Source: an uncultured Erysipelotrichaceae bacterium
Lineage (GTDB): Bacteria; Bacillota_I; Bacilli_A; Erysipelotrichales; Erysipelotrichaceae
Reading direction: 5' to 3'
DNA: 48,996 nt
Assembly: GCA_900314905.1 (NCBI GenBank)
Contig: OMXA01000014.1
Location: 1-48,996 of the forward strand
Shown here piece after piece: positions 4,199 to 42,298 of the stretch (positions within the stretch are counted from its first letter, which is position 1; every line of letters begins with the position of its first letter). A program made the translations under genes and the position numbers. The notes beneath the pieces were generated by a model, which was not told where the DNA came from, ran no database searches, and saw only the letters and a program-made list of their open reading frames with translations.

Positions 4199-5357
4199 GG
4201 TGCTCCTTCAGGAGGGCACTTGCCCGCTTCAGCCGCAGACCGCCCAGTTCTTCATTCAGATCGCTGAGGATGCTGGCAGTTTCTTCTTTTTCAGATTCTT
4301 CCAGATTGAAAAGATTGCGGTCTTCCTGCTCTGAATGGAATTCGCTTACCGTAAGTCCCAGCAGCCGGACCGGATCCTGTTCCCAGTTCTCATTGAACAG
4401 ACGGATTCCCTGTTCAAACAGATCATCTGCTTTCCAGATCGGATGATCTGCATGCATGGAACGATCTGCATTGGAAAAATCAGCATAGCGGATCCGGATC
4501 GATACGAGAGATCCCCTCTTTCTTGCTTCTGCAAGTCTTTTCGACAGTCTTCTGGAAAGCGTGCGCAGCATTCCGCGCAGTTCATCATAGTCTGTAACAT
4601 CCTCGAGGAACGTCTCGCTCACTCCCATGGATTTCGGATCAGTCTCCAGTTCAATCTGCCGGTCATCATGCCCATTCGCACGGGCAATCATCTGTTCGGT
4701 ATTCTTCCCGAAAATCATCCGAAGCTGTTCCGGATCCTTCCATTGTGCCAGGTCTCCGATCGTGCGGATGCCGAGTTCTTCCAGATATGGCAGTGTCTTC
4801 TTTCCGACCCCGCGCATATCTCCGATCGTCAATGGCCAGAGCTTCTGCGGCACTTCGCGGATCCGGAGTACCGTAATCCCCATCGGCTTCTTCATATCAG
4901 AAGCCATCTTAGCAAGGAAAAGATTCGGACCGATGCCGATGGAGCACGGCAGGCCAAGCTCGTCTCTCACCCGATGCTGAAGCTGAAACGCAAGATCCAG
5001 AGGACGCGGAAAATGAAGGATGGCATCGGTCATATCTGCATAGCATTCATCAATGCTCGCCTGCTCCACGATCTGCGTATAGCTTCTGACAATTGCCATG
5101 AATTCATTGCTCAGCTCTTCATAATAATTGAAATGAGGTGCCACGACAGCAAGATCACGGCAGAGATTCCTTGCCTCTGCAATCGGCATTGCACTGTGCA
5201 CCCCATAAGCTCTTGCTTCATAGCTTGCGGTAGAAACCACGCTGCGGCGTGTCTGTCCTGACACTGCCAGCGGCTTCCCTCTCAGTGTCGGGTCCAGCAG
5301 ACATTCGGCATTTGCAAAGAAAGCATTCAGATCAATATGAAAATAAACCCTCGACAT
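4188..5357 (-). CDS. dinB: DNA polymerase IV (Y-family translesion polymerase)
   Basis: A 389-residue error-prone polymerase that bypasses DNA lesions. The metal-binding D9 (HIDLNAFFA) and the D103-E104 pair (SIDECYADMTD) are present. A thumb with helix-hairpin-helix (MRGVGKKTLPYLEELGI) and a little-finger domain follow. A possible beta-clamp motif (QEDRNLF) lies near residue 345, ahead of an unusually acidic tail. It starts three bases after recN ends and overlaps xerD, so it belongs to the same transcript. Confidence 0.95.
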   Translation of the reverse strand: MSRVYFHIDLNAFFANAECLLDPTLRGKPLAVSGQTRRSVVSTASYEARAYGVHSAMPIAEARNLCRDLAVVAPHFNYYEELSNEFMAIVRSYTQIVEQASIDECYADMTDAILHFPRPLDLAFQLQHRVRDELGLPCSIGIGPNLFLAKMASDMKKPMGITVLRIREVPQKLWPLTIGDMRGVGKKTLPYLEELGIRTIGDLAQWKDPEQLRMIFGKNTEQMIARANGHDDRQIELETDPKSMGVSETFLEDVTDYDELRGMLRTLSRRLSKRLAEARKRGSLVSIRIRYADFSNADRSMHADHPIWKADDLFEQGIRLFNENWEQDPVRLLGLTVSEFHSEQEDRNLFNLEESEKEETASILSDLNEELGGLRLKRASALLKEHHED

Positions 5358-11748: not shown

Positions 11749-12312
11749 ATGAGCGAAGCGAAGAAGAACATGTCTTTCTGGCAGAGATTTTCCGGCCACC
11801 TGAAAACCGTGCATCACCACCGTTCCCTGGTACGGAAATACTGTTTTGCCTGCGGTCTTTACTGGCAGGGACTGATCCATGATCTCTCCAAGTACAGCCC
11901 GGCGGAATTCATTCCTTCCGTGCACTACTACCAGGGATGGAGAAGTCCTTATCCTGCCGAGAAGAAGGAAAAAGGATACTCTATGGGCTGGCTCCATCAT
12001 AAAGGCAGAAACCCGCATCATTGGGAATACTGGTATGACACGATCGGCGGAGTATGGCAGCCGATCAGGATGCCGTACCGCTATCTGATCGAAAGCATCT
12101 GCGATCGGATCGCCGCAAGCCGTACCTATCATAAAGCATCCTATCAGAGTTCTGATGCGCTGAATTACTTCCTCAAGCACCATGGCGATCAGTACATGCA
12201 TCCGGAAACTGCGAAGGAAATGGAGAAGATCCTCCGCATGATTGCAGAAAACGGAGAAGAAGATACCTTCCGGAAAATCCGCCAGTCAATAAAAGAACAC
12301 CGCCAGATCTAG
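11749..12312 (+). CDS. DUF5662 family protein
   Basis: A 187-residue soluble protein rich in His and aromatic residues (KTVHHHRSLV, HDLSKYSPAEF, HHKGRNPHHWEYW). It resembles the DUF5662 family, for which I know no function. The spaced His/Asp pairs, including HDLSKY and HHWEYW, look like a helical metal-binding fold of HD-phosphohydrolase type, which is inference. The ATG at 11749 follows a promoter-like sequence almost directly and has no ribosome binding site. Its TAG stop overlaps the TAG stop of convergent oppF in the shared CTAG at 12309-12312. Confidence 0.75.
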   Translation: MSEAKKNMSFWQRFSGHLKTVHHHRSLVRKYCFACGLYWQGLIHDLSKYSPAEFIPSVHYYQGWRSPYPAEKKEKGYSMGWLHHKGRNPHHWEYWYDTIGGVWQPIRMPYRYLIESICDRIAASRTYHKASYQSSDALNYFLKHHGDQYMHPETAKEMEKILRMIAENGEEDTFRKIRQSIKEHRQI

Positions 12313-13292
12313 CGATGTTCTTTTTCTTCTTCCAGAAAACATGCGGTCCAGTGTCCTGGTTCATGTTCGATCAGATCCGGTTCTTCCTTCCGGCAGCGAT
12401 CTGATGCAAATGGACAGCGGCCGGCAAACCGGCAGTGCTTCGGAGGATCAATCGGGCTCGGCACTTCTCCTTCAAGACGGATGCGCTTCTTTCTCCGCTG
12501 GGCTTCGGCTTCCGGATCAGGAACGGGAACGGCTGACATCAGGGCTTTCGTATACGGATGCCGCGGATCAGAATACAGTTCTTCCGAGCTTGCAAGTTCC
12601 ACGATCCGGCCCAGATACATGACTGCAACGCGATCAGAGATATGGCGGACCATTGAAAGATCATGCGCCACGAACAGGTAGCTGAGATGCAGTTCCTTCT
12701 GCAGCCTCTGCAGCATGTTCACAACCTGCGCCTGGATGCTCACATCCAGAGCCGAAATCGGTTCATCCAGAATCAGCACCTTCGGATTGAGTGCAAGTGC
12801 TCTGGCAATGCCGATCCGCTGACGCTGACCGCCGGAAAACTCATGGATGAAGCGATTGGCATGCTCTGCATTCAGATCCACCATTTCCAGCAGTTCATAA
12901 ATGCGCTGCGTGCGTTCTGCTTTCGAAGAGACCATGTGGTGGATATCAAGCCCCTCCGCAATGATATCTCCGACTGTCATGCGAGGGTCAAGCGAAGCAT
13001 ACGGATCCTGAAAGACCATCTGTGCTTCTTTGCGGAACTGCATCAGTTCCTTGCCTTTCAGCTCTGCAGTATCCCTTCCATGGTAAAGCACCTGGCCTGC
13101 GGTAGGCTGATACATCCCGATCAGCGTCCTGGCGCAGGTAGTCTTGCCGCAGCCGCTTTCTCCAACCAGTCCTAATGTTTCGCCTGCGTGAATCTGAAAG
13201 GATACCTCATCCACCGCATGAAGCACATGCCCCTTGCCGGCAGGAAAATACTTCTTCAGACTCTTCGCTTCCAGCACGACTTCTTCAGACAT
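12309..13292 (-). CDS. oppF: Oligopeptide ABC transporter ATP-binding protein OppF
   Basis: A 327-residue ATPase that powers peptide uptake as partner of OppD. Seen: Walker A GESGCGKTT, Q-loop VFQDPYASLDPR, signature SGGQRQRIGIARAL, Walker B VLILDEP and the H-loop VAHDLS. The C-terminal oligopeptide-transporter domain carries CRFAGRCPFASDRC. Its start overlaps oppD by eight bases. It is the last gene of the operon, and no hairpin terminator follows before the convergent DUF5662-like gene. Confidence 0.95.
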   Translation of the reverse strand: MSEEVVLEAKSLKKYFPAGKGHVLHAVDEVSFQIHAGETLGLVGESGCGKTTCARTLIGMYQPTAGQVLYHGRDTAELKGKELMQFRKEAQMVFQDPYASLDPRMTVGDIIAEGLDIHHMVSSKAERTQRIYELLEMVDLNAEHANRFIHEFSGGQRQRIGIARALALNPKVLILDEPISALDVSIQAQVVNMLQRLQKELHLSYLFVAHDLSMVRHISDRVAVMYLGRIVELASSEELYSDPRHPYTKALMSAVPVPDPEAEAQRRKKRIRLEGEVPSPIDPPKHCRFAGRCPFASDRCRKEEPDLIEHEPGHWTACFLEEEKEHR

Positions 13293-14313
13293 GGAAATCC
13301 TCCTTCATAAACGGAGCATCAGCCGGTGCATGTTCCAGTGCATACAGCCAGCAGGATGCTTCATGGTCTGCCTCGAACCGATAAGCCGGAGGCTGTCTGT
13401 TCAGACATGCCTGCATGCAGTACTGGCAGCGGGTGCAGAAGCCGCACCCTGCCGGCGGATTCAGAAGATCAGGCGGAGTACCCGCAATCGCCGTAAGTTC
13501 CTCCCCGCGATCCTGATCCAGGCGAGGCACTGCCCTCAACAGAGCATTCGTATACGGATGGCGCGGATGATGGAAAATCTCGTGTGCAGAGCCATGTTCA
13601 GCAATCTGGCCGGCATACATGACCGCAATACGATCCGCAATGCTGGCAACCACGCCGAGATCATGGGTGATCAGAATCACGCTTGTCCCGTTTTCTTTCT
13701 GCAGATTGCGGATCAGATCAATGATCTGCGACTGAATCGTCACGTCCAGTGCAGTCGTCGGCTCATCGGCAACCAGGAGTTTCGGCTTGTTGGCAAATGC
13801 AATCGCAATCATGACCCGCTGACGCATGCCGCCGGAAAGCTGATGAGGATACTGCCGGATCCGTTCCTCAGGCTGAGAGATCCCTACTTTCCGCAGCAGC
13901 TCAATGGCCTCTGCTTCCGCTGCCTGCTTTGAAATCCGGTTATGATGAACCAGCGTTTCAATGATCTGCCTGCCGATGGTCATAGTCGGATTCAGCGAGA
14001 CCATCGCATCCTGGAATACGATAGCCGCATCGCCGCCATGGTAAGCCTGCATGCGCTTTTCCGAGAATTTCAGGATATCCTGTCCTTCAAAGAAGATATG
14101 ACTCTCCGGATCGATGATCCCAGGCCGGTGCGTCAGTCCCATGACAGTTCTTGCGGTAACAGATTTCCCGCACCCGGATTCTCCGACGATGGCAAGGGTC
14201 TCTCCCTGTTTCAGATCAAAACTGACCCCGCGGACCGCCTGCACGATTCCGGCCGGCGTGCGGAAGCTGACCTTCAGATTCTGAACCTGAAGCAGAATCG
14301 GATTCTCACTCAT
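13285..14313 (-). CDS. oppD: Oligopeptide ABC transporter ATP-binding protein OppD
   Basis: A 342-residue ATPase with Walker A GESGCGKS, Q-loop VFQDAMVSLNP, signature SGGMRQRVMIAIAF, Walker B LLVADEP and H-loop ITHDLG. The C-terminal domain is unusually Cys-rich: CGFCTRCQYCMQAC has five Cys in 14 residues, where OppD proteins typically have three or four. This region is the reported iron-sulfur site in some peptide transporters, so cluster binding is possible. Three bases separate it from oppC. Confidence 0.95.
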   Translation of the reverse strand: MSENPILLQVQNLKVSFRTPAGIVQAVRGVSFDLKQGETLAIVGESGCGKSVTARTVMGLTHRPGIIDPESHIFFEGQDILKFSEKRMQAYHGGDAAIVFQDAMVSLNPTMTIGRQIIETLVHHNRISKQAAEAEAIELLRKVGISQPEERIRQYPHQLSGGMRQRVMIAIAFANKPKLLVADEPTTALDVTIQSQIIDLIRNLQKENGTSVILITHDLGVVASIADRIAVMYAGQIAEHGSAHEIFHHPRHPYTNALLRAVPRLDQDRGEELTAIAGTPPDLLNPPAGCGFCTRCQYCMQACLNRQPPAYRFEADHEASCWLYALEHAPADAPFMKEDFHV

Positions 14314-14316
14314 GAC

Positions 14317-15264
14317 TCATCCCTGCCTTTCTTCGGTCCGCGGATCCAGCGCATCGCGCAGACCATCGCCGAGCAGATTGAAGGCCAGGACGATAATGCA
14401 CAGCACCAGACACGGAAAAATCAGCTGCCATGGATAGAACTGCATCTTGGTCTTGCCATCGGAAATCAGAACGCCAAGCGAAATCACATCTCCGGACAGC
14501 CCCATGCCGAGAAACGACAGCGAGGCTTCGGTGAAAATATAGCTCGGAATACTCGAGCAGAGATCCAGAATCAGGATGCCGATCGTATTCGGAAGCAGAT
14601 GCTGGCGGATGACTCTGCCTGCAGAAGCACCGAGCAGCTGAGCAGCCTGAACATATTCCGATTCCCTCAGCTGCATGATCTGCCCTCTGACAGTTCTTGC
14701 GGTAGCACACCAGGAAGTGACGCACATCGCGACAAGCAGTCCGCCGATATTCTTGCCGATGACCATCATGATCAGCAGCGTGATCAGAAGATACGGGAAC
14801 GAATCGATGACTTCGATGATGCGCATCATCACTGCATCGACCTTGCCGCCGAAGTAAGCCATAATGCCGCCATATGCGCTGCCGACCAGAAGCTGGATCG
14901 CAGAACAGACCAGGGCAACCAGGATCGAAAGACGAGCCCCGATCCATACTCTGCTCCAGAGGTCTCTGCCAAGTCCGTCAGTTCCGAACCAGTAGGTTCC
15001 ATCAGGTGCAATGTTCTTCGCTTTTGCATTGATGCTGAGATACTCGGCATTGCTCATGCGCGGTCCGAAGAGAACCAGCACCAGCATGACAAGAAGCAGG
15101 ATCATCGAGAAGACTGCTACCGGATTATGAAACAGACGGCGCCTTGCCCCCTGCCAGAAGGTCTGCACTGGTCTTGCGATCTGTTCCCGGTTCTTCTGTG
15201 CCGAAACAGTCCGGACGGATTCTTCCTGAGAAAGGACAGGTGCTGTTCCATCTGCTGCTATCAT
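14317..15264 (-). CDS. oppC: Oligopeptide ABC transporter permease OppC
   Basis: A 315-residue inner-membrane permease with about six membrane spans. The N-terminal OppC segment (FWQGARRRLFHNPVAVFSMI) precedes the first span. The coupling-loop motif reads EYVQAAQLLGASAGRVIRQHLLPN, and the end is LGDGLRDALDPR, both characteristic of OppC/DppC. Its ATG overlaps the last base of oppB. Confidence 0.95.
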   Translation of the reverse strand: MIAADGTAPVLSQEESVRTVSAQKNREQIARPVQTFWQGARRRLFHNPVAVFSMILLLVMLVLVLFGPRMSNAEYLSINAKAKNIAPDGTYWFGTDGLGRDLWSRVWIGARLSILVALVCSAIQLLVGSAYGGIMAYFGGKVDAVMMRIIEVIDSFPYLLITLLIMMVIGKNIGGLLVAMCVTSWCATARTVRGQIMQLRESEYVQAAQLLGASAGRVIRQHLLPNTIGILILDLCSSIPSYIFTEASLSFLGMGLSGDVISLGVLISDGKTKMQFYPWQLIFPCLVLCIIVLAFNLLGDGLRDALDPRTEERQG

Positions 15265-16223
15265 CAGTGCTTTCCTCCTTCCAGACGGATTCTCGGGTCA
15301 ACCACCGTATAGAGAATATCGGTGATGAACACCACAAAGATGTAAAGAGCGGCGATGATCACGGTCTCCCCCATGACAATCGGAACATCCTGGGCAGCGA
15401 CCGCATTGACATAATAGAGACCGAGCCCGGGAATCGAAAAGACACTCTCAATGAAGAAGCTTCCGGTGATGCACATGGCAACGCTCATCGGAAGACGGGT
15501 GATGATCGGAATCATCGAATTCCGCAGCACATGATGCAGGATGACTTCTCTCCGGCTGAGGCCTTTTGATTCTGCGGTAAGCACGTATTCCTGATTCATG
15601 ACATCGAGCATCGAAGTCTTGAGCAGTCTCGAATAGCTGGCAATATAGCCGAAGCAGCCAGCCAGGGTCGGCAGGACCGTATACTTCCATCCGGAAGTCC
15701 AGACATGGGTGCTTGGCCAGCCGATCACCGGAAACCATTTCAGCTTTGCCGCAAAGACTGCCTGCAGCAGCAGCGCAAATACGAGGCTCGGCACGGAAAT
15801 CAGGAGAATCGACAGGACCACGACAAAGTAATCCCAGAAGGTCCCTTTCTTCACTGCCGCAAGGATGCCGAGCAGAATCCCGACAGAAACCCCGAGAATC
15901 ATCTGCTGCAGACCTAACCTTGCGCTGACCGGTCCTTTTTCAGCAATGATGGACTGAACTGTTTCTCCCTGGTAGATGATCGACTCTCCGAAGTCGCCGT
16001 GCGCAAGTCCTTTCATCGTGATGACGTAGCGTTCCATGACTGGCTTATCGAGTCCGTATTTCGCATACATGCGTTCCGCAACCTGTTCCGGAAGCTTGTC
16101 AACCCGGGCGCTCAGCGCATCTCCAGGAGTCAGGGCAAGCAGGAAGAATGTCGCAGTCGCAATCAGAAACAGCGTCAGGATCGAGGTCAGAAACCGCTTG
16201 AGTATATATTTTGCAAATTTCAT
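15264..16223 (-). CDS. oppB: Oligopeptide ABC transporter permease OppB
   Basis: A 319-residue permease with six predicted membrane spans. The family start MKFAKYILKR was chosen because GGGAG lies just before it and the preceding 19 possible codons are not OppB-like. The coupling motif EYVLTAESKGLSRREVILHHVLRN and the end DPRIRLEG fit OppB/DppB. A stem-loop stands in the spacer between oppA and this gene. Confidence 0.95.
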   Translation of the reverse strand: MKFAKYILKRFLTSILTLFLIATATFFLLALTPGDALSARVDKLPEQVAERMYAKYGLDKPVMERYVITMKGLAHGDFGESIIYQGETVQSIIAEKGPVSARLGLQQMILGVSVGILLGILAAVKKGTFWDYFVVVLSILLISVPSLVFALLLQAVFAAKLKWFPVIGWPSTHVWTSGWKYTVLPTLAGCFGYIASYSRLLKTSMLDVMNQEYVLTAESKGLSRREVILHHVLRNSMIPIITRLPMSVAMCITGSFFIESVFSIPGLGLYYVNAVAAQDVPIVMGETVIIAALYIFVVFITDILYTVVDPRIRLEGGKH

Positions 16224-16245
16224 GAATTCTCCCGAAAAGAATGAA

Positions 16246-16275
16246 GGAAGACAGAAACCCCTGTTCCTGTCTTCC
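16246..16275 (-). promoter_or_regulatory. Intercistronic stem-loop between oppA and oppB
   Basis: GGAAGACAG (16246-16254) pairs perfectly with CTGTCTTCC (16267-16275) around a 12-base loop. The minus strand continues with a weak T-rich run. Such hairpins after a binding-protein gene commonly give partial termination or protect its mRNA, so that OppA is made in excess over the membrane subunits. Confidence 0.6.
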
Positions 16276-16285
16276 GGCAAAAGAC

Positions 16286-18040
16286 TCAGTGCTTGACAAT
16301 ATAAGCTCTTGAGAACTCAACATCTGCGCCGAACAGCGGGAAGCTGAGTCCCTTCACATAGCTCTGCGCATAGATCTGCGCATTCTCGAAATACAGCGGG
16401 CATACCCCTGCCTGATCCATCAGAATCGTTTCTGCCTGCGTGAACAGATCCGCTCGTTCGCTCTCATCCAGACTGGAATCAGCCTGTTCCATCAGCGCAT
16501 CATAGTCTGCGTTGCTGAAGCCGCCCATGAACTTTCCATAAGGACTAGTGGAAGTGAACAGATCCAGGAAATTAGCCGGATCGTCATAGTCTGCAAACCA
16601 GCCCATGACATAGAAGTCATACTGATAGCTGTCACGCGCTGCCTTCCAGGTCGAGACATCCGGATAAACCTCAACGTCCAGAGTAACGCCAAGCTTATCA
16701 GCAAGCTGCTGCTTATACCATTCATTCTCGTTTGCAGTGAGGGTCGAGCTGTCATAGATGATAGTCGTCAGCGTGACATCCTCCGGAGTTCCGGAAACAC
16801 CAGCTTCTTTCATTCCTTCCTGGAACAGCGCCTTCAGCGCATCCGGATCCTCGGCAAGCTTTTTGTCTTCATCGCTCAGCAGAAGATCCCCGGCAACGGA
16901 ACGGTATTCCTCGCCATTGACCGTGATGCCATTCGGAACGAGTCCGTAAGCAGGCGTGGAAAGACCGCTCTGGAACATCTCATTGAATTCCTCACGATCA
17001 AACGCAAGCATGATGGCCTTGCGTACTTTTGCATTCAGCATCAGTCCGGAAGGACCGCCTTTTCCTTCTTCATGCATGTCAAACGAGATATACGTAGAAG
17101 ATGGAGAATTGCTTACCACATGTTCAAACGTTCCATCATCCACGAGCGGCTGCCACTGATCAACATACTCAAGATCCGTCAGCTTCAGCACGTCTACCTG
17201 CTGGGATTCCATCAGCTGTGCCTGAGTAGCAGTTTCATCCACCACGCGGAGGTTGACCTGAGTCAGCTTCACATTGTCTTTGTCCCAGTACTGATCATTC
17301 TTCGTCAGCGTCATCGAGTTTTCCAGAACCCGATCGGAGATCACGAACGGTCCGTTAAAGACATGCAGCGTATAATCATTCGTCCAGTCTTTGCCAGCCG
17401 CCTCTGCCGCATCAATCAGATCCTTCCAGATCGGATACATCGGCACCATGCCTGCTTTCTTGATGAAAGAAGGATCCGGGGCAGCAAGCACCGCAACCAG
17501 CGTATCATCATCCGGAGCAGAAACCTGAACATCCTCGGCCGAACCAGTTCCGTCATAGTATGCTTCTGCCCCAGCAATTCCGGACGCAAGGAAGTAATAC
17601 GGGAACGCATTTTCAGCCGTCAGAAGGCGGATCCAGGAATCAACGTAGTTCTGAGCAGTGACTGGCTGGCCATCGCTCCATTTTGCGTCTTTCCGCAGAT
17701 GGAACGTATAGGTAAGATTGTCGTCACTGATTTCATAGCTCGTGCAGCCAGCATTCTCGTTCTGGTCCACTCCGTTTTCATCGGTGAAGGTGCGGAACAG
17801 TCCTTCCTGCACTTCCGTAAGAACCTGCATCTCATTCGAATTGCGGGCATCATTGACATCGAGCAGGCTGAGATCCGTATATACGAGATTCAGAACCTGA
17901 TCATCAGCGAGTTCTTCACTGCCGCCTGCGGCCGATGCTGCACCAGCAGTCGAGGCAGTTTCCGCCGCGGAAGAATCTCCGCATGCGGCAAGGCTTAATA
18001 CCATGGCCGTGACCAGCACGGCGCCGAAAACCTTTTTCAT
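16286..18040 (-). CDS. oppA: Peptide-binding lipoprotein OppA
   Basis: A 584-residue substrate-binding protein of family 5 (SBP_bac_5). The signal peptide ends in the lipobox LAAC with the lipidated C20 (LSLAACGDSS), so it is anchored on the outer face of the membrane. An Ala/Ser/Glu linker follows. The core shows YTFHLRKDAKWSDGQPVTAQNYVDSWIR in pieces typical of oligopeptide binders and ends with LYFENAQIYAQ. The substrate cannot be read from sequence. It is the first gene of the operon and lies behind a regulated leader with a Cys-rich peptide. Confidence 0.93.
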   Translation of the reverse strand: MKKVFGAVLVTAMVLSLAACGDSSAAETASTAGAASAAGGSEELADDQVLNLVYTDLSLLDVNDARNSNEMQVLTEVQEGLFRTFTDENGVDQNENAGCTSYEISDDNLTYTFHLRKDAKWSDGQPVTAQNYVDSWIRLLTAENAFPYYFLASGIAGAEAYYDGTGSAEDVQVSAPDDDTLVAVLAAPDPSFIKKAGMVPMYPIWKDLIDAAEAAGKDWTNDYTLHVFNGPFVISDRVLENSMTLTKNDQYWDKDNVKLTQVNLRVVDETATQAQLMESQQVDVLKLTDLEYVDQWQPLVDDGTFEHVVSNSPSSTYISFDMHEEGKGGPSGLMLNAKVRKAIMLAFDREEFNEMFQSGLSTPAYGLVPNGITVNGEEYRSVAGDLLLSDEDKKLAEDPDALKALFQEGMKEAGVSGTPEDVTLTTIIYDSSTLTANENEWYKQQLADKLGVTLDVEVYPDVSTWKAARDSYQYDFYVMGWFADYDDPANFLDLFTSTSPYGKFMGGFSNADYDALMEQADSSLDESERADLFTQAETILMDQAGVCPLYFENAQIYAQSYVKGLSFPLFGADVEFSRAYIVKH

Positions 18041-18083
18041 ATTTCTTCTTTTCCTTCCCTGTCTCTGAAACGATGTAGATACA

Positions 18084-18112
18084 TAAAAAAAGGAAGTATC
18101 ATCAGACTTCCT
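18084..18112 (-). terminator. Attenuator terminator in the opp leader
   Basis: On the minus strand AGGAAGT (complement of 18106-18112) pairs with ACTTCCT (18091-18097) around an 8-base loop, followed by about seven Ts. It stands some 50 bases before oppA, inside the transcribed leader, so it would stop transcription before the first structural gene. Confidence 0.7.
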
Positions 18113-18158
18113 GACAGAATGCCGGCACAGATGAAAAAACCAGAGCAGATTCCGTCAG
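18111..18158 (-). promoter_or_regulatory. Putative antiterminator stem in the opp leader
   Basis: In the RNA, CUGACGGAAU (18149-18158) can pair with AUUCUGUCAG (18111-18120): ten base pairs with one G-U. The 3' arm shares its last two bases with the terminator stem, so the two structures exclude each other. The 5' arm begins at the stop codon of the leader peptide, where a terminating ribosome would cover it. Confidence 0.6.
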
Positions 18159-18190
18159 TATTCCAGCTCACCCCTGCAACAGCACTTCAT
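18155..18190 (-). CDS. Leader peptide MKCCCRGELEY upstream of oppA
   Basis: An 11-codon reading frame with three successive Cys codons (TGC TGT TGC) as codons 3-5. AAGGAGG at 18198-18204 lies seven bases before its ATG, a near-ideal ribosome binding site, and a consensus promoter lies directly upstream. Its stop is at the 5' arm of the proposed antiterminator. Length, codon bias and position match leader peptides of classical amino-acid attenuators. The inferred role is sensing charged tRNA-Cys for control of the opp operon. Confidence 0.65.
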   Translation of the reverse strand: MKCCCRGELEY

Positions 18191-18217
18191 GACACTTCCT
18201 CCTTTATGCTTGCAAGG

Positions 18218-18246
18218 ATTCTACTTCTGCATTGATCTGATGTCAA
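18218..18246 (-). promoter_or_regulatory. Promoter of the opp operon
   Basis: Minus-strand TTGACA (18241-18246), a 17-base spacer and TAGAAT (18218-18223) form a near-perfect housekeeping promoter. The predicted start near 18211 gives a leader of about 170 bases before oppA. Confidence 0.8.
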
Positions 18247-18425
18247 CTGAAACTATCAGATGTCTCTTGGAGCAGATTCTATCTGATGCACGGCATTTTC
18301 AGGCACATGCAGATCGCGGAAGGAAAGGAGGCCAGACGGAACAGCCATCCGAAGAAATGAACCATCAGGTCAAAGAGGATCAGCGAGAAGTCATAGCAGC
18401 AAACCGGAGATCCCCGTATGATAAA

Positions 18426-18618: not shown

Positions 18619-18646
18619 AGAAAAAACGCACAGACATCTGCCTGCG
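18619..18646 (-). terminator. Terminator after guaB
   Basis: Minus-strand CGCA and CAGA (with a GG bulge) pair with TCTG and TGCG over a two-base loop, followed by six Ts. It begins about 12 bases after the guaB stop. Confidence 0.6.
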
Positions 18647-18657
18647 CGCCTTTCCGC

Positions 18658-20166
18658 TTACTTATTGAATGAAGTATCCTTGTGCTTGACCATGACGTCG
18701 TGGGCTCCGCCTTCCACAATCGAAGTAGCAGAGACGAGCGTGAGTCTTGCCTTGTGCTGCAGCTCCGGAATATCGAGTGCCCCGCAGTTGCACATCGTGG
18801 ACTTGATCTTGGAGGTGGTCATCAGCACGTTATCATGCAGGAAGCCCGCATAAGGAACATAGGAATCAACGCCTTCCTCAAAGGAAAGCTTCTTGCCCTG
18901 GCCGAGATCGTATCTTCCCCAGTTGCGGGCTCGGTTGGAACCTTCCCCCCAGTATTCCTTGACATAGGAACCATTGATCATCAGCTTTTCGCCAGGTGCT
19001 TCTTCAAAGCGGGAGAAATAGCGTCCCAGCATGACGAAGTCCGCGCCCATCGCAAGGGCAAGAATAATATGGTAGTCATAGACGATGCCGCCGTCAGAGC
19101 AGATCGGGATATAAGTTCCGGTCTTCTCGAAGTATGCATCTCTTGCCTTGGCGACTTCCTGAACTGCGGTTGCCTGGCCTCTGCCGATGCCTTTGGTCTC
19201 ACGGGTGATGCAGATACTGCCGCCGCCGATGCCGATCTTGATGAAATCCGCACCTGCATCGGCAAGGTAATTGAAGCCATCCGGATCGACGACATTGCCT
19301 GCCCCGATCTTCACGGAATCCCCATAGTGCTCTCTGATCCAGTGAATCGTCTTTGCCTGCCAGCAGGTATAGCCATCGGAAGAATCAATGACCAGAATAT
19401 CTACGCCCGCATCGAGAAGTGCAGGAACCCGTTCTTCATAATCACGGGTATTGATGCCTGCCCCGACCATGAAGCGTTTTTCATGATCGAGCAGTTCATT
19501 CGGATGAGCTTTGTGACTCTCATAGTCCTTGCGGAATACGAGATAGACCAGATGATCATTTTCATCAACCAGCGGAAGCGTGTTGAGCTTGTGTTCCCAG
19601 ATCAGATCATTGCAGGTGCTGAGATTATCCGTGGAACGGCCGACAATCAGTTTCTCGCGCGGAGTCATGAACTCTTTCACCTTCGCATCAAGGTCGGCAT
19701 GTCCGATCCGGTAGTCACGGCTGGTGATCATGCCCAGTAGCTTGCCATTCGCAGTGCCGTCTTCGGTGACTGCCATGGTGCTGTGTCCGGTCTTATCGAG
19801 CAGTTCCAGCATCTCGCCGATGGTAGTATCAGGGGTTACGTTGGAATCAGATGGAACATAGCCTGCTTTATAATTCTTGACTCTCGCAACCATCGCTGCC
19901 TGTTCGGCAATCGGCTGAGAACCGAAGATGAAGGAGATGCCGCCTTCCTTGGCTAAGGCAATGGCAAGACGGTCGCCGGAAACGGACTGCATGACCGCAG
20001 ATACCATCGGGATGTTCAGCGAGATGGAAGGTTCCTCCCCTTTTCTGAATTTCACCAATGGGGTTTTCAGAGATACATTCTGAGGAATATTCTGTTCTTC
20101 GGTCAGACCTGGTACCAGAAGATATTCACTGAATGTATGAGATGCTTCCTGATAATAAGTTGCCAT
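18658..20166 (-). CDS. guaB: IMP dehydrogenase, Tritrichomonas-like type
   Basis: A 502-residue enzyme that oxidises IMP to XMP, the committed step to GMP. It has the TIM-barrel core with a CBS-domain insertion (about 105-220). The active-site loop is [19 protein letters not shown] with catalytic C319, and the flap [13 protein letters not shown] supplies R418 and Y419. These are the residue numbers I recall for the Tritrichomonas foetus enzyme, and the alignment by memory is close from end to end (start MA-YY, ending STMCNCGAL..., VEGGAHDV). GGGAGG precedes the ATG. It is divergent from proS with overlapping promoters. Confidence 0.93.
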
Positions 20167-30589: not shown

Positions 30590-32362
30590 TCAGAGCCCTT
30601 TCGAAGCAATCTCGTCAGCAGCTCTGCTGCAGAATTCATCGAAGCTCATCTTTACAGCATCCTTGGAACCATAGCGGCGGACCGTGACAGCATGTTCATT
30701 GACTTCACCTTCACCGACTACGATCTCAACCGGAATCTTGCTGGTCTGTGCTTCACGGACACGATAGCCAAGTTTCTCATTGCGGGAATCGACTGACACA
30801 CGCATGCCTCTTGCCTTGAGCTGATGCTCAAGCTCTTCGGCATAGTTCAGCTGGCTTTCAGATTCTCCGGAAACCGGAAGAATCACGATCTGCTTCGGAG
30901 CCAGCCAGAGCGGCAGAACGCCTTTGGTCTCTTCGAGCAGGAATGCGATGAACCGATCGAGAGAACCGAGAATTGCACGATGGATGACCACCGGACGCTT
31001 CTTCGTGCCATCACTGTCGACATATTCCAGTTCAAACCGTTCCGGCAGCTGGTAGTCAAGCTGAATGGTGGAAAGCGTCACGTCGTGGCCGATGGCACTG
31101 CGGACCTGAACATCGATCTTCGGTCCGTAGAACGCGGCTTCGCCCTTGGCTTCATAGTACTTCACGCCCATCTCTTTCAGCACTTCGCGAAGCTCGGTCT
31201 CGCTGCGCTCCCAGAGCTCATCATTGCCGAAGTACTTGGCCGCATTGTCCGGATCTCTTAAGGAAAGGCGGAAGCTGTATTCCTTGAAACTGAAGTCTTT
31301 GTAGACATCGAGGATCAGCTTCGTGACTGCCTTGATCTCAGAACCGATCTGATCCGGACGGCAGAAGATATGAGAGTCATTCTGCGTGAAAGCACGTGCC
31401 CGCTCGATGCCAGTCAGCGCACCAGATGCCTCGAAGCGGAAGTCGTTGGCAATCTCTGCAATCCGGACCGGAAGATCGCGGTAGGAATGCAGCGTGTTCT
31501 TGTAGATCATCATATGCTCCGGGCAGTTCATCGGACGAAGCACGTAAGCATTATCCGGATCTCTGCGATCCTGCATTGCTGGGAACATATCATCCTTGTA
31601 ATGATCCCAGTGACCGGAGATCTTATAGAGCTTGACGTTTGCAACAGACGGGGTCATGACATGGATATAGCCCTGGTCAAGTTCCTTATCCATGATGTAA
31701 TCGGACAGAATTCTGCGGACGGTGAAACCATTCGGCAGATACATCGGCAAGCCAGCTCCGACGACATCCGAGAACATGAACATCTGCAGTTCCTTGCCGA
31801 GCTTGCGGTGGTCTCTTGCCTTCGCATCTTCCAGCTCTGAGAGATACGCATCCAGCTCCTCCTGAGTCGGGAAGCAGACCCCGTAGATTCTCTGCAGAAC
31901 CTTGTTATGCTCATCGCCCTTCCAGTATGCACCGGAATGCTTCAGAAGCTTGAAATAGCGGCACATCCTGGTATTGTCGACATGCGGGCCGCGGCAGAGA
32001 TCCGTATAATCGCCCTGCGTGTAGCAGGAGATGACCTGTTCCTGATCATCCATGCGGCTGATCAGATCGAGCTTGTACGGATCATCCTTGAACATCTCCA
32101 GGGCTTCTGCCTTCGTGATTTCGTGACGGACAATCTTCTTGCCATCTTTGGCAAGCTTCTTCATCTCTTTCTCGATTTTCGGCAGATCTTCATCGCGGAT
32201 CACCTCATCGCCCAGATCGATGTCATAATAGAATCCTTCTTCGACAACCGGGCCGACCCAGAACTTTGCCTGCGGATACAGATGCTTCACGGCCTGTGCC
32301 ATCAGATGGGCACAGCTGTGATTGAGAACATGAAGTTTCTCATCTTCCTTGAAATTGATCAT
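30590..32362 (-). CDS. thrS: Threonyl-tRNA synthetase lacking the TGS domain
   Basis: A 590-residue class II synthetase. The protein begins directly at the editing domain (HVLNHSCAHLMAQAVKHLYPQ), so the N-terminal TGS domain of about 60 residues found in most ThrS is missing. The editing site continues with HEITKAEAL and GPHVDNT. The catalytic core has the zinc Cys in RPMNCPEHMMIYK and motif 3 near HRAILGSLDRFIAFLLEE, followed by the anticodon-binding domain. The ATG at 32362 follows AAAGGAG; frames further upstream are T-box leader, not protein. It is regulated by that T-box. Confidence 0.93.
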   Translation of the reverse strand: MINFKEDEKLHVLNHSCAHLMAQAVKHLYPQAKFWVGPVVEEGFYYDIDLGDEVIRDEDLPKIEKEMKKLAKDGKKIVRHEITKAEALEMFKDDPYKLDLISRMDDQEQVISCYTQGDYTDLCRGPHVDNTRMCRYFKLLKHSGAYWKGDEHNKVLQRIYGVCFPTQEELDAYLSELEDAKARDHRKLGKELQMFMFSDVVGAGLPMYLPNGFTVRRILSDYIMDKELDQGYIHVMTPSVANVKLYKISGHWDHYKDDMFPAMQDRRDPDNAYVLRPMNCPEHMMIYKNTLHSYRDLPVRIAEIANDFRFEASGALTGIERARAFTQNDSHIFCRPDQIGSEIKAVTKLILDVYKDFSFKEYSFRLSLRDPDNAAKYFGNDELWERSETELREVLKEMGVKYYEAKGEAAFYGPKIDVQVRSAIGHDVTLSTIQLDYQLPERFELEYVDSDGTKKRPVVIHRAILGSLDRFIAFLLEETKGVLPLWLAPKQIVILPVSGESESQLNYAEELEHQLKARGMRVSVDSRNEKLGYRVREAQTSKIPVEIVVGEGEVNEHAVTVRRYGSKDAVKMSFDEFCSRAADEIASKGL

Positions 32363-32380
32363 CATAATCTCCTTTGAATA

Positions 32381-32602
32381 AGAAAAGCGTCCTCCTACGA
32401 AGGACGCTGAACGAGCGCGGTACCACCTTGTTTCCCGGACTTTCTCCGGACTCCTCATTCTCCTTTTAACGCAGGATGGCGGGATCCGATTGAGGACCTG
32501 CTCCCAGGCGGTAAATTCTGTGCTCATCAGTTTCCTCTCATCATCCGGAAACCTTTCTGATCCGAGCGTACAGAACTGTTGTCCTGTTCATCGCATTTGT
32601 GA
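32381..32602 (-). promoter_or_regulatory. T-box riboswitch of thrS
   Basis: The T-box motif AAGGTGGTACCGCG occupies 32416-32429. It is followed by the terminator stem GCGTCCT/AGGACGC (32387-32407) with a short T run. Upstream is the stem I region, with GAGAGGAAACTGATGAGC features and a likely Thr specifier ACC at 32510-32512 after GAATTT. Uncharged tRNA-Thr should bind and allow transcription of thrS and the gene behind it. Confidence 0.93.
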
Positions 32603-38749: not shown

Positions 38750-41362
38750 TCACGAATTCAGCGAAGCGAGACGTTCCTTCACGAGGGCAAGCTGCTTTTC
38801 GTAGTCTGCCTGCTTCTTCTGTTCCAGCTCTACCTTTTCTTTCGGAGCCTTGGCCAGGAAGCCGGCATTGGAGAGGATCCCGGCAGAACGCTTCAGCTCT
38901 CCTTCGAGGCGCTTTGCTTCGGCATTGAGTTTTGCCTTTTCCTTTCCCGGATCCAGCAGTTCAGAGCTCGGAATATAGAAGGAACCATTCGGAACCGTCT
39001 GCACGGAAAGATCGCCGCTCAGAGATTCTGTCCAGGTTGTCTTGGCCATTCGTTCCATCATCGCTGCCTGATTGGCATCGACCGGAATCACATTGCCATC
39101 CAGATCGCGGATCATGACATCAAGATGTGCCGACGGCTTGAGGTCGCTGGCTGCCTTGATCTCACGGATCTTGGCAATGATTGAGATGATGCGGTCCATG
39201 GACGCAAGATCGCTCTTTGGAAGGTCGCGGATCGGTTCAGGCCAGGATTCCAGGCAGATGCTTTCCTTCTCATGCGGCATCTTCTGGTAGATTTCCTCGG
39301 TCACAAACGGCATGAACGGGTGCAGCAGACGGACAATCGTATTCAGCGTAACTAACAGCGTGCTCTGCGCAGCCTTGCGGACCTTTTCATTTTCGCTGGC
39401 CAGCGAGGCTTTGGACATTTCGATATACCAGCTGCAGAAATCATCCCAGACAAAGCTGTAAAGCTCATTGCCGACCAGAGCGAATTCATACTTCTCCATA
39501 TTCTCCGTCACATGCCCAAGAACCAGATTCATCTTGTTCAGGATCCAGGCATCGGAAGCACTCAGATTGCTGAGATCGATCTCTTCCATCGTCATGTCTT
39601 CCGGAAGATTCATCAGAACGAAGCGGGAAGCGTTCCAGATCTTGTTGATGAAGTTCCAGGAAGCTTCGACTTTCTCCGGGATATAGCGCATGTCCTGGCC
39701 AGGGGTGCTGTTGGTAGTCAGGAAGAAGCGAAGCGAATCGACTCCGTACTGATCGATGACCTGCATCGGGTCGATGCCGTTGCCGAGCGACTTCGACATC
39801 TTTCTGCCCTGGCTGTCACGGATCAGGCCATGAATCAGGACATCCCTGAACGGACGCTGCCTGGTGAAGTGGCGGGCCTGGAAAGCCATGCGGGCAACCC
39901 AGAAGAAGATGATGTCATAGCCGGTTACCATCGTGCTGGTCGGATAGTAACGTTCATAATCCGGCGTATCTTCCGGCCAGCCCAGCGTCGCAAATGGCCA
40001 GAGCGCACTCGAGAACCAGGTATCGAGCACATCTTCATCCTGGATCCAGTTCTCCGGATCCTTCGGATCTTCTTCGCCGACATACGTTTCGCCAGTCGCC
40101 TTGCTGTACCATGCCGGAATGCGGTGACCCCACCAGAGCTGGCGGGAGATGCACCAGTCCTCAATGTTCTCAAGCCACTGGGTGAAGACTCTCTCGAAGC
40201 GTTCCGGATAGAAGCTGATCTTCTGGTCCGGATCCTGCTGATTCTTCAGCACGTCCTCCGCCAGCGGCTTCATCTTCACGAACCACTGCTGAGAGAGATA
40301 AGGCTCGACGACGCAATGCGTGCGCTCGGAATGACCGACGCTGTGCACGATGTCTTCGATCCGGATCAGATTTCCTTCTTTCCGGATCTTTTCGATGACC
40401 GCATCTCTTGCTTCATAGCGGTCCATGCCCCTGAATTCGCCGCAGAGCTCATTCATCGTGCCATCCGGGTTCATGCAGATCGGCTTAGGCAGATTGTGAC
40501 GCTCGGCAATCGCAAAGTCATTCGGATCATGGGCAGGAGTGCACTTCATGATGGCGGTGCCGAAGTCCATATCGATATAATCATCGCCGATGATCGGCAG
40601 CGTCTCGCCATTGGCAGGATTGATCGTATGCTTGCCGATCAGGTGCTGATAGCGCTTGTCATTCGGATTCACGACCACGCACACATCGCCGAACATCGTC
40701 TCCGGACGAGTGGTCGCAACGTGGAACTCCTCGCCGGTCTCGACAACCTGATAGCGCATGTAGTACATCTTGCCAGGATCATCCTGATAATAGACCTCAA
40801 TATTGCTGAGGGCAGTGCGGGCTTCCGGATCCCAGTTGATGATCCGCCAGCCGCGATAGATCAGGCCTTCGTTATACAGAGTCACGAATACATGGCGGAC
40901 TGCTTTGTTGAAGCCTTCATCCATCGTGAACCGCTCTCGGCTGTAATCCAGGCTGTTGCCAAGCTTCGCCCACTGCTTCCGGATCGTGGAAGCATATTCT
41001 TCTTTCCATTCCCAGGCTCTTTCCAGGAACTTCTCACGGCCGATATCATAGCGTGAGATGCCTTCCGATTTCAGGCGCGCATCCACTTTTGCCTGAGTTG
41101 CGATACCGGCATGATCCATGCCAGGCAGATACAGCATGTCATAGCCCTGCATCCGCTTGTATCGGGCAATGATATCCTGCAGCGTATTGTCCCAGGCATG
41201 GCCGATGTGCAGGATGCCAGTCACATTAGGGGGCGGAATCACAATCGTGAACGGGTCTTTCGATTTGTCGCCGGCGGTGAAGTATCCTTCCTTCACCCAG
41301 TGATCATACTTTCCTTCCTCCACTGCCTTGTGGTCGTATTTCGATGCGAGATTCTCTTTCAT
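38750..41362 (-). CDS. valS: Valyl-tRNA synthetase
   Basis: An 870-residue class I synthetase. The HIGH motif is in PPNVTGILHIGHAWDNTL near 45-60 and KMSKS is in GRKMSKSLGNG near 525. The editing (CP1) domain, anticodon-binding domain and a C-terminal coiled coil (AKLNAEAKRLEGELKRS) are in the expected order. GGAGG precedes the ATG. Expression is controlled by the T-box directly upstream. Confidence 0.97.
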   Translation of the reverse strand: MKENLASKYDHKAVEEGKYDHWVKEGYFTAGDKSKDPFTIVIPPPNVTGILHIGHAWDNTLQDIIARYKRMQGYDMLYLPGMDHAGIATQAKVDARLKSEGISRYDIGREKFLERAWEWKEEYASTIRKQWAKLGNSLDYSRERFTMDEGFNKAVRHVFVTLYNEGLIYRGWRIINWDPEARTALSNIEVYYQDDPGKMYYMRYQVVETGEEFHVATTRPETMFGDVCVVVNPNDKRYQHLIGKHTINPANGETLPIIGDDYIDMDFGTAIMKCTPAHDPNDFAIAERHNLPKPICMNPDGTMNELCGEFRGMDRYEARDAVIEKIRKEGNLIRIEDIVHSVGHSERTHCVVEPYLSQQWFVKMKPLAEDVLKNQQDPDQKISFYPERFERVFTQWLENIEDWCISRQLWWGHRIPAWYSKATGETYVGEEDPKDPENWIQDEDVLDTWFSSALWPFATLGWPEDTPDYERYYPTSTMVTGYDIIFFWVARMAFQARHFTRQRPFRDVLIHGLIRDSQGRKMSKSLGNGIDPMQVIDQYGVDSLRFFLTTNSTPGQDMRYIPEKVEASWNFINKIWNASRFVLMNLPEDMTMEEIDLSNLSASDAWILNKMNLVLGHVTENMEKYEFALVGNELYSFVWDDFCSWYIEMSKASLASENEKVRKAAQSTLLVTLNTIVRLLHPFMPFVTEEIYQKMPHEKESICLESWPEPIRDLPKSDLASMDRIISIIAKIREIKAASDLKPSAHLDVMIRDLDGNVIPVDANQAAMMERMAKTTWTESLSGDLSVQTVPNGSFYIPSSELLDPGKEKAKLNAEAKRLEGELKRSAGILSNAGFLAKAPKEKVELEQKKQADYEKQLALVKERLASLNS

Positions 41363-41385: not shown

Positions 41386-41602
41386 AAAAGCGTCCCTCTT
41401 ATGAAGGACGCTGACGTCTGCGTGGTACCACCTTGCTTGCTTCTCGAACTGCGTAACGTGCATTCCCCGGTTTCTCTTACTGAAACGGTTCAGAGAAACA
41501 GCTCCCGGATGACTTCGTTCCTTCCTGCATGCACTTCCTTCTCATCTCTATGGAAGCTCGCTTTCCATGCGGCGGAAGAACTTACTTGTTCCGCTCTTTG
41601 CT
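41386..41602 (-). promoter_or_regulatory. T-box riboswitch of valS
   Basis: The T-box motif AAGGTGGTACCAC occupies 41422-41434. The terminator stem AGCGTCC/GGACGCT (41389-41412) with TTTT follows. The stem I region upstream contains a likely Val specifier GTC at 41511-41513 in GAACGAAGTCATCC. It responds to uncharged tRNA-Val. Confidence 0.93.
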
Positions 41603-42298
41603 GTCTGTATTATACCTGTGCCTCTGATGCTTTTCAATTCGTTTTTCAGAATGCTCCATCGCTTCTTTTTCCAGCGCTTCGTTTTCAGCTTTCAGCACAG
41701 CCAGCCGCTCTGCCAGCGCTTTCTGCTCAGCAGCTTTCTGCCTGGCTTTTTCCTGGGCAGCGAATTCTTCCGGCGTGATCAGGGTCACATGCGAAAGATC
41801 AATGGATTCCTGCGGCTGCTTTCTCTCCGGCTCCTGCTGAGGTGATTTCTTCCGGGCACGTTTCTTTGATTTCTTCTCCCTCTTTCCTTCTGAAGCTGCA
41901 GGGCTCTCTGGTTCCTGGACCGCCCGGATCAGAGCGGTATCGTCGATGCCGTTCTTCTTCTCCATCTCTCTCAGCATGCGGGTTTCCGGTTCTTCACGGG
42001 GGATGCCCGGCTTCCTTGGCTGCATTTCTTCCCCGCCGCGATCCGGGACCAGGAAATCTTCACGGAACCAGCGCTCTTTCATGTTCTGATTGATGAGGTG
42101 TGAAGTCAGCTTTTCATCCGCCAGCAGCAGAACGATCATAGCGGCAAGATAGGCATAGGGAGAAACTTCCAGAATCATGAACACGATATCAATCACGAGA
42201 TATCCGATGGCGAACAATCCGAGATAGACCAGAAGCACAGCCGCAAAATATCTGCGCTTCATGCGGCCAAGCTGGCTGCGGGGATTCTTTTTCTGCAT
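41582..42298 (-). CDS. Membrane protein with long charged cytoplasmic tail
   Basis: A 238-residue protein I do not recognise. Two hydrophobic segments lie at about 18-42 and 46-62, followed by a strongly charged, Lys/Glu-rich region with predicted coiled coil near 185-225 (AQEKARQKAAEQKALAERLA...). Its 3' end contains the valS promoter. The ATG lacks a ribosome binding site and stands six bases after a -10 element, so the mRNA is probably leaderless. It is divergent from the SRAP gene. Confidence 0.65.
   Translation of the reverse strand: MQKKNPRSQLGRMKRRYFAAVLLVYLGLFAIGYLVIDIVFMILEVSPYAYLAAMIVLLLADEKLTSHLINQNMKERWFREDFLVPDRGGEEMQPRKPGIPREEPETRMLREMEKKNGIDDTALIRAVQEPESPAASEGKREKKSKKRARKKSPQQEPERKQPQESIDLSHVTLITPEEFAAQEKARQKAAEQKALAERLAVLKAENEALEKEAMEHSEKRIEKHQRHRYNTDSKERNK
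41609..41637 (-). promoter_or_regulatory. Promoter of valS
   Basis: Minus-strand TTGAAA (41632-41637), a 17-base spacer and TATAAT (41609-41614). It lies inside the last codons of the upstream membrane-protein gene. Confidence 0.8.

Follow-up and report, generated by a model that had tools for sequence, protein, structure and literature searches.

The polycysteine ORFs of mycobacteria are said to have been termed leaderless by Canestrari in 2020. Translation attenuation has been described for these ORFs (PMC13236596), and candidate Cys leader peptides have been noted at actinobacterial cys/cbs operons (PMC1262725). In Rhodobacterales, uORFC-8-2 lies upstream of cysS and is presented with 145 unique examples, in which the Cys codons are usually codons 14-15; ribosome-mediated attenuation was proposed for it (PMC8632094). 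His leader-peptide attenuators with 3-5 consecutive His codons are described from Erysipelotrichales, Eubacteriales and the B. cereus group (PMC9413887). Cys leader peptides are already in print, as are leader-peptide attenuators in Bacillota, Erysipelotrichales included. In the titles and abstract openings of the literature searched, no Cys attenuator of opp was named.

The locus analysed here lies ahead of an opp-type operon on contig C22 of a 2.14-Mb genome in 76 contigs. The T-boxes of this genome and the way genomes group suggest a Bacillota order similar to Erysipelotrichales. The whole stretch of DNA, 48,996 nucleotides long, is called the window.

Organization of the Leader and Its Setting

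The coordinates of the features are collected in Table 1. Five opp-type ABC genes, coding for a solute-binding protein, two permeases and two ATPases, follow one another on the minus strand from 18040 to 12309, and Pfam cut-offs were passed. Considering that, among the NCBIfam transporter matches listed, none attains its curated cut-off, the oligopeptide substrate is a family-level guess. The terminator-like hairpin past guaB would fit a separate transcription unit for opp. Between 17950 and 18700 there was one promoter-like site, at 18246-18218, where shuffled sequences averaged 0.5; opp therefore probably has its own start and, judging by the promoter spacing, the RNA probably begins at about 18211. 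In the same interval there were three terminator-like sites including that of the leader, with 0.9 expected.

Table 1. Features of the leader region, its neighbours and the T-box matches. Positions are those of the window unless a contig is named.
Feature	Position	Strand	Remarks
guaB	18658-20166	minus	918.5 bits to PRK07107
Terminator-like hairpin, directly 3′ of guaB	18620-18655	minus	Sequence scan
Sigma-70-type promoter	18218-18246	minus	TTGACA-17-TAGAAT, 11/12; -35 18246-18241, -10 18223-18218
Leader SD and start codon	18188-18205	minus	AAAGGAGGAAGTGTCATG; SD AAAGGAGGAAG, ATG at 18190
Leader ORF	18155-18190	minus	MKCCCRGELEY, 11 codons and stop; Cys codons 3-5 at 18184-18176
10-bp stem, 5′ arm	18149-18158	minus	CTGACGGAAT
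10-bp stem, 3′ arm	18111-18120	minus	ATTCTGTCAG; terminator overlap 18112-18111 only
Predicted intrinsic terminator	18085-18112	minus	7-bp stem 18112-18106 / 18097-18091, -7.0 kcal/mol
oppA-type family-5 solute-binding protein (SBP)	16286-18040	minus	Pfam SBP_bac_5 above cut-off; NCBIfam cut-offs unmet
oppB-type permease	15264-16280	minus	Top NCBIfam Opp3B, under cut-off
oppC-type permease	14317-15264	minus	Top NCBIfam Opp3C, under cut-off
oppD-type ATPase	13285-14313	minus	
oppF-type ATPase	12309-13292	minus	
T-box match at thrS (30590-32527)	32397-32600	minus	82.4 bits, gathering score 93
T-box match at valS (38750-41362)	41401-41607	minus	83.1 bits, gathering score 93
T-box match directly before opp-type SBP gene	C18:12469-12714		SBP match from 12809; 80.9 bits, E 5.1e-18; cut-off 93
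T-box match directly before opp-type SBP gene	C36:79939-80149		SBP match from 80232; 89.8 bits, E 2.6e-20; cut-off 93

The first-pass annotation had described a promoter, a near-ideal ribosome binding site, the 11-codon peptide and a terminator with about seven Ts, and all of them were recovered at the minus-strand positions it gave. The promoter agrees with the consensus at 11 of 12 positions, and the terminator consists of AGGAAGT, an 8-nt loop and ACTTCCT (18112-18091), with a seven-T run at 18091-18085. Several traits of a leader-peptide attenuator are present and in the proper order, namely an SD-preceded ORF just 3′ of the promoter in which codons of a single amino acid are repeated and then, by sequence and folding, a predicted intrinsic terminator between this ORF and the opp genes. 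The rarity of the codon run was estimated on ATG ORFs of 5-40 codons, inside or outside genes, with an SD-like word upstream, omitting 57 loci that had been fetched via Cys patterns or the leader search. Cys-Cys-Cys occurred in 3 of 1271 such ORFs when the leader was counted (2 of the 1270 others). The leader is a real, non-random unit upstream of the opp-type operon.

A 21-codon frame, MILPFFMYLHRFRDREGKEEI, begins within the terminator loop and runs on the minus strand from 18102 to 18037, where its TGA overlaps the oppA start (ATGA). It could reflect translational coupling to oppA, or chance.

Two Predicted Partners for the Terminator 3′ Arm

It had been claimed that the terminator 3′ arm can pair over ten bases with the ribosome-binding region of the peptide. 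The pairing is real and longer, since 18205-18189 pairs with 18086-18102 in 17 contiguous bp (G-U allowed) that cover both the 3′ arm and the U-tract. The duplex reaches -26.0 kcal/mol versus -7.0 kcal/mol for the terminator hairpin, and in folding the two are mutually exclusive. This pairing dominates the fold of the whole leader (-51.1 kcal/mol, a value that 5 of 200 shuffles also attained). The leader start, AGGAAGTGTCATGA, and the terminator 5′ arm, AGGAAGTCTGATGA, are identical at 12 of 14 positions, which explains why one 3′ arm fits both partners.

To allow for purine-rich SDs and U-rich tails, a duplex control was built with 56 SDs and 35 terminators from pieces of the same genome, chosen by rough rules. 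None of the 56 other SDs reached -26.0 against the leader 3′ arm (best -17.8, median -10.65), nor did any of 34 other terminators against the leader SD (best -17.6) or any of the 1960 cross pairs (best -25.6). When the SD region was shuffled, one sequence in 5000 equalled the natural duplex. A point against the switch proposed below is that composition alone lets SDs pair with terminator tails, as the median and the best cross pair show. Folding with single footprints gave capture of the 3′ arm by the SD even for an RNA cut at 18096, too short for more than two terminator pairs; the value was 0.83 with no ribosome and 0.54 with one on the stop codon.

Ribosome Position and Predicted Termination

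The effect of the ribosome was modelled at equilibrium by masking footprints, nine sizes per codon, in transcripts ending at 18090 or 18086. With no ribosome the terminator stood at 0.00 and the SD:3′-arm helix at 1.00. For a lone ribosome, the mean terminator values (18090/18086) by A-site were 0.47/0.47 at Lys2, 0.60/0.51 at Cys3, 0.42/0.32 at Cys4 and 0.18/0.08 at Cys5, falling to 0.00 from Arg6 to the stop; the Cys4 value at end 18090 varies from 0.01 to 0.74 with the footprint, and the values also shift with the transcript end, some of them again when the transcript is extended to 18041. Whenever the SD was free, either with no ribosome or with the A-site past Cys5, the terminator did not exceed 0.02, while with the SD covered its mean went from 0.47 (Lys2) up to 0.98 (Leu9). 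When the SD was also covered (three sizes), the terminator was 0.67-0.73 at Cys3-5 versus 0.89-0.98 from Leu9 to the stop. The direction claimed earlier, with less termination on stalling at the Cys codons, is thus predicted only if the SD is always covered, and then as a modest change; for a lone ribosome the predicted direction is reversed.

Coverage of the SD is insufficient by itself, because a 70S ribosome at the AUG, with its single footprint to 18176, gave 0.04 at end 18090 despite the covered SD; here AGGGGUG of the peptide frame captures the 3′ arm. With one ribosome at the stop codon and a second one behind it, transcripts ending at 18090 and 18092 gave 0.72 and 0.32, respectively. 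Equilibrium folding exaggerates long-range pairing, the local hairpin being favoured kinetically, and kinetics could alter these values for the leader. Also against the switch, the U-tract portion of the helix is inside RNA polymerase at the moment of the termination decision.

As the best explanation we tentatively put forward a translation-coupled transcription attenuator with an SD:terminator switch, a serious possibility. The transcript would open, from about 18211, with the SD and AUG of the peptide, and the terminator 3′ arm would have two exclusive partners, the local AGGAAGT or the SD-AUG segment. Pairing with AGGAAGT would form the terminator and end transcription; pairing with SD-AUG would give the 17-bp helix, leaving no terminator and burying the leader start. 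The decision would lie in whether a ribosome covers the SD as the 3′ arm emerges, in such a way that steady leader translation would lead to termination and a free SD to read-through into opp. The occupancy of the SD would be tied to the supply of Cys-tRNA through the three Cys codons just past the start. The analysis establishes the parts, their exclusive pairings and the rarity of these against controls; we infer that the pairings occur in vivo and govern opp, with cysteine a plausible signal.

A more specific form of this proposal, in which the SD and start codon of the leader serve as antiterminator strand, nearly copied in the terminator 5′ arm, and a starved ribosome at Cys3-5 parks on its own SD, is unlikely. 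If it held, the leader would sense ribosome initiation and clearance and not the masking of a downstream stem, and the sign of the cysteine response could even oppose that of classical attenuation.

Distribution of the Leader and Amino Acid Control in the Same Genome

An ordinary leader, in which a fortuitous short ORF precedes a partly efficient terminator that fixes a constant opp level without amino acid sensing, is somewhat unlikely; the comparison with relatives speaks for it. Among 71 genomes of the genus, the present one included, a close oppB is carried only by G189 (OppB 84%) and G302 (71%), and the next oppB among the matches listed is the C42 copy of the same genome, at 44%. On the G189 contig oppA is cut to its last 40 residues. 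The syntenic oppA of G302 is 37% identical, and in the interval 4400-4760, which takes in the 123 bases upstream of this gene, scanning gave no promoter-like or terminator-like site. These 123 bases contain no Cys run; a 7-codon frame, MKIACRA, is present there without an SD. Conservation in relatives had been named by the first-pass annotation as a test of its reading; the reading fails this test in G302, the sole readable syntenic ortholog (n = 1), from which the leader is absent.

Searches with the DNA and with codon patterns point the same way. When 210 leader bases were searched across the family, 246 of 273 genomes matched at E up to 1; among the matches listed, none outside the place of the window exceeded 44 bases and the best other E was 1.7e-4, and these matches were treated as noise. 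Across the order, a pattern of GGAGG, ATG, a gap of at most 9 bases and Cys-Cys-Cys, which does not hold frame, was found in 75 of 295 genomes, and its reversed control also matches. Among these matches the window alone reads Met-Lys-Cys-Cys-Cys, and an opp-like gene followed at none of the seven places inspected. With CGN/AGN added after the run, a search at the level of the phylum gave 11 of 392 genomes, of which nine were by eye out of frame and one was the window; the remaining in-frame case lies inside a long reading frame resembling, by eye, a P-type ATPase, so that the in-frame pattern occurs in 2 of 392 genomes. These pattern searches gave no second Cys leader before opp within the genomes covered. 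A search of genome contigs with OppD gave 80 loci with a best identity of 58%, too distant for leader alignment; these and the other loci collected were scanned solely for Cys-rich, SD-preceded short ORFs. In the stretches from C18, C42, C36 and C25 an SD-preceded Cys-Cys-Cys short ORF was absent.

Two other short ORFs were observed in the course of these scans. Near 14970 on C18 (L200:2971, plus strand), between two oppA-like genes, there is an SD-preceded ORF with four Cys, MLCWRTVCIHGCEAELDCK. MSCCCLGRK, also preceded by an SD, has its ATG 93 nt before hflX and recurs unchanged in two genomes that share another genus of the family (L204:1029-1058, plus strand; L205 from 3241, minus strand); its conservation is weak evidence, since 183 of the 190 surrounding bases agree.

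Against an ordinary leader stands the rarity of both the Cys-Cys-Cys run and the SD:3′-arm helix, together with the T-box matches before two sister opp-type loci of the same genome (Table 1), which suggest that amino acid control of opp-type operons is normal in this organism. The genome has 18 T-box matches, 9 of them above the cut-off. The earlier statement that such control in Bacillota is usually by T-box fits these two loci and needs qualifying in view of the leader-peptide attenuators published for Bacillota (PMC9413887). Within the window, the T-box match at thrS overlaps the called start of the gene, and the true start is therefore probably further in. A cysE-like/cysK pair is found at C47 (cysK above cut-off, cysE-like at 154 bits versus 210.65), and the organism therefore probably makes cysteine from serine.

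The Stem at the Stop Codon

The first-pass annotation had proposed classical attenuation by Cys, in which stalling at the Cys codons would free 18158-18149 and a 10-bp stem with 18120-18111 would block the terminator. The pairing is present, with one G-U, and its geometry fits: on reaching the stop codon the ribosome would cover the 5′ arm, and the leading edge of a ribosome at Cys5 stops short of 18158 and leaves the arm free. A comparable stem is also rare: among 20000 shuffles, 170 had ten or more base pairs linking the stop region to the terminator 5′ arm, and 506 had them when any start within the spacer was allowed. The fold of 18163-18085 with the 5′ arm free has -21.0 kcal/mol, and 76 of 2000 shuffles were as low.

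The role of antiterminator was not sustained. The stem shares two bases with the terminator, and the minimum-energy fold of 18163-18085 holds the full 7-bp terminator together with 7 pairs of the 10-bp stem, which has an inner extension, and forcing the terminator carries zero cost. Folding with and without the 5′ arm masked, as had been suggested, moved the outermost terminator pair 18112-18091 from 0.36 with the arm free to 0.65 with the arm masked, a shift of the size that an overlap of two bases allows. The pair 18111-18092 barely moved (0.73 to 0.74, a change of 0.015, equalled or bettered in 759 of 2000 shuffles). The logic of ribosome masking has little to act on. The stem was rejected as an antiterminator, being nearly compatible with the terminator in one fold, and it may be at most a weak modulator. 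The classical scheme can further claim the lower terminator values at Cys3-5 than from Leu9 to the stop with the SD covered, but it is overridden by a free SD. We regard it as improbable.

The SD:3′-arm helix could instead act after transcription, silencing leader translation or shielding the 5′ end of the read-through mRNA. The full length of the helix needs the U-tract to be out of the polymerase; against this, folding gives capture of the arm in transcripts as short as those with ends at 18096 and 18092, and we give the proposal a slim chance. A degenerate T-box or other known riboswitch at the leader has a negligible probability, in spite of the T-box matches ahead of the SBP genes at C36 and C18, since there were zero Rfam gathering-level matches across the window, the RF00230 search of the genome gave no match at the leader, and with E up to 10 the interval 17950-18350 gave four chance matches to eukaryotic microRNA/lncRNA families (best E 0.49), by which, as far as such searches are sensitive, a T-box, S-box or other Rfam element is excluded.

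Comparison with Known Systems

If the SD:terminator switch works as proposed, a peptide transporter would be under leader-peptide (Cys) control while two sister opp-type loci show T-box matches. Its design would be simple, the ribosome-binding site itself rivalling the terminator. The leader would resemble the opp T-boxes of its own genome in that both would link a transporter of this kind to amino acid supply. In a T-box the tRNA binds the RNA directly and a leader peptide is absent.

The leader shares with uORFC-8-2 a short ORF upstream of the target gene in which Cys codons stand in tandem; uORFC-8-2 also has, in the account given there, a stem over the codons and a U-run consistent with an intrinsic terminator (PMC8632094). 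Unlike uORFC-8-2 as described in that source, the present leader precedes opp, has its Cys codons at positions 3-5 and is a single example (PMC8632094). The actinobacterial cys/cbs leaders likewise have a run of Cys codons in a short ORF, and they precede sulfur-related genes (PMC1262725). Their Cys codons lie near the stop and, in what that source says of Mycobacterium, a conserved terminator hairpin is lacking (PMC1262725), whereas the opp leader has a strong SD and a predicted intrinsic terminator. The His attenuators of Bacillota, a group that uses T-boxes as well, also combine a terminator with a leader peptide and alternative hairpins (PMC9413887), of which the hairpins of the opp leader are predicted; the His attenuators differ in serving his operons and in being known, according to the same source, from groups of related species (PMC9413887). 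Finally, the vmlR leader of B. subtilis also carries a uORF, and there the antiterminator and terminator are exclusive and the position of the ribosome decides between them (PMC9226507). In vmlR, as that paper presents it, the stalling is caused by antibiotic on a tripeptide and the switch is an anti-antiterminator hairpin (PMC9226507).
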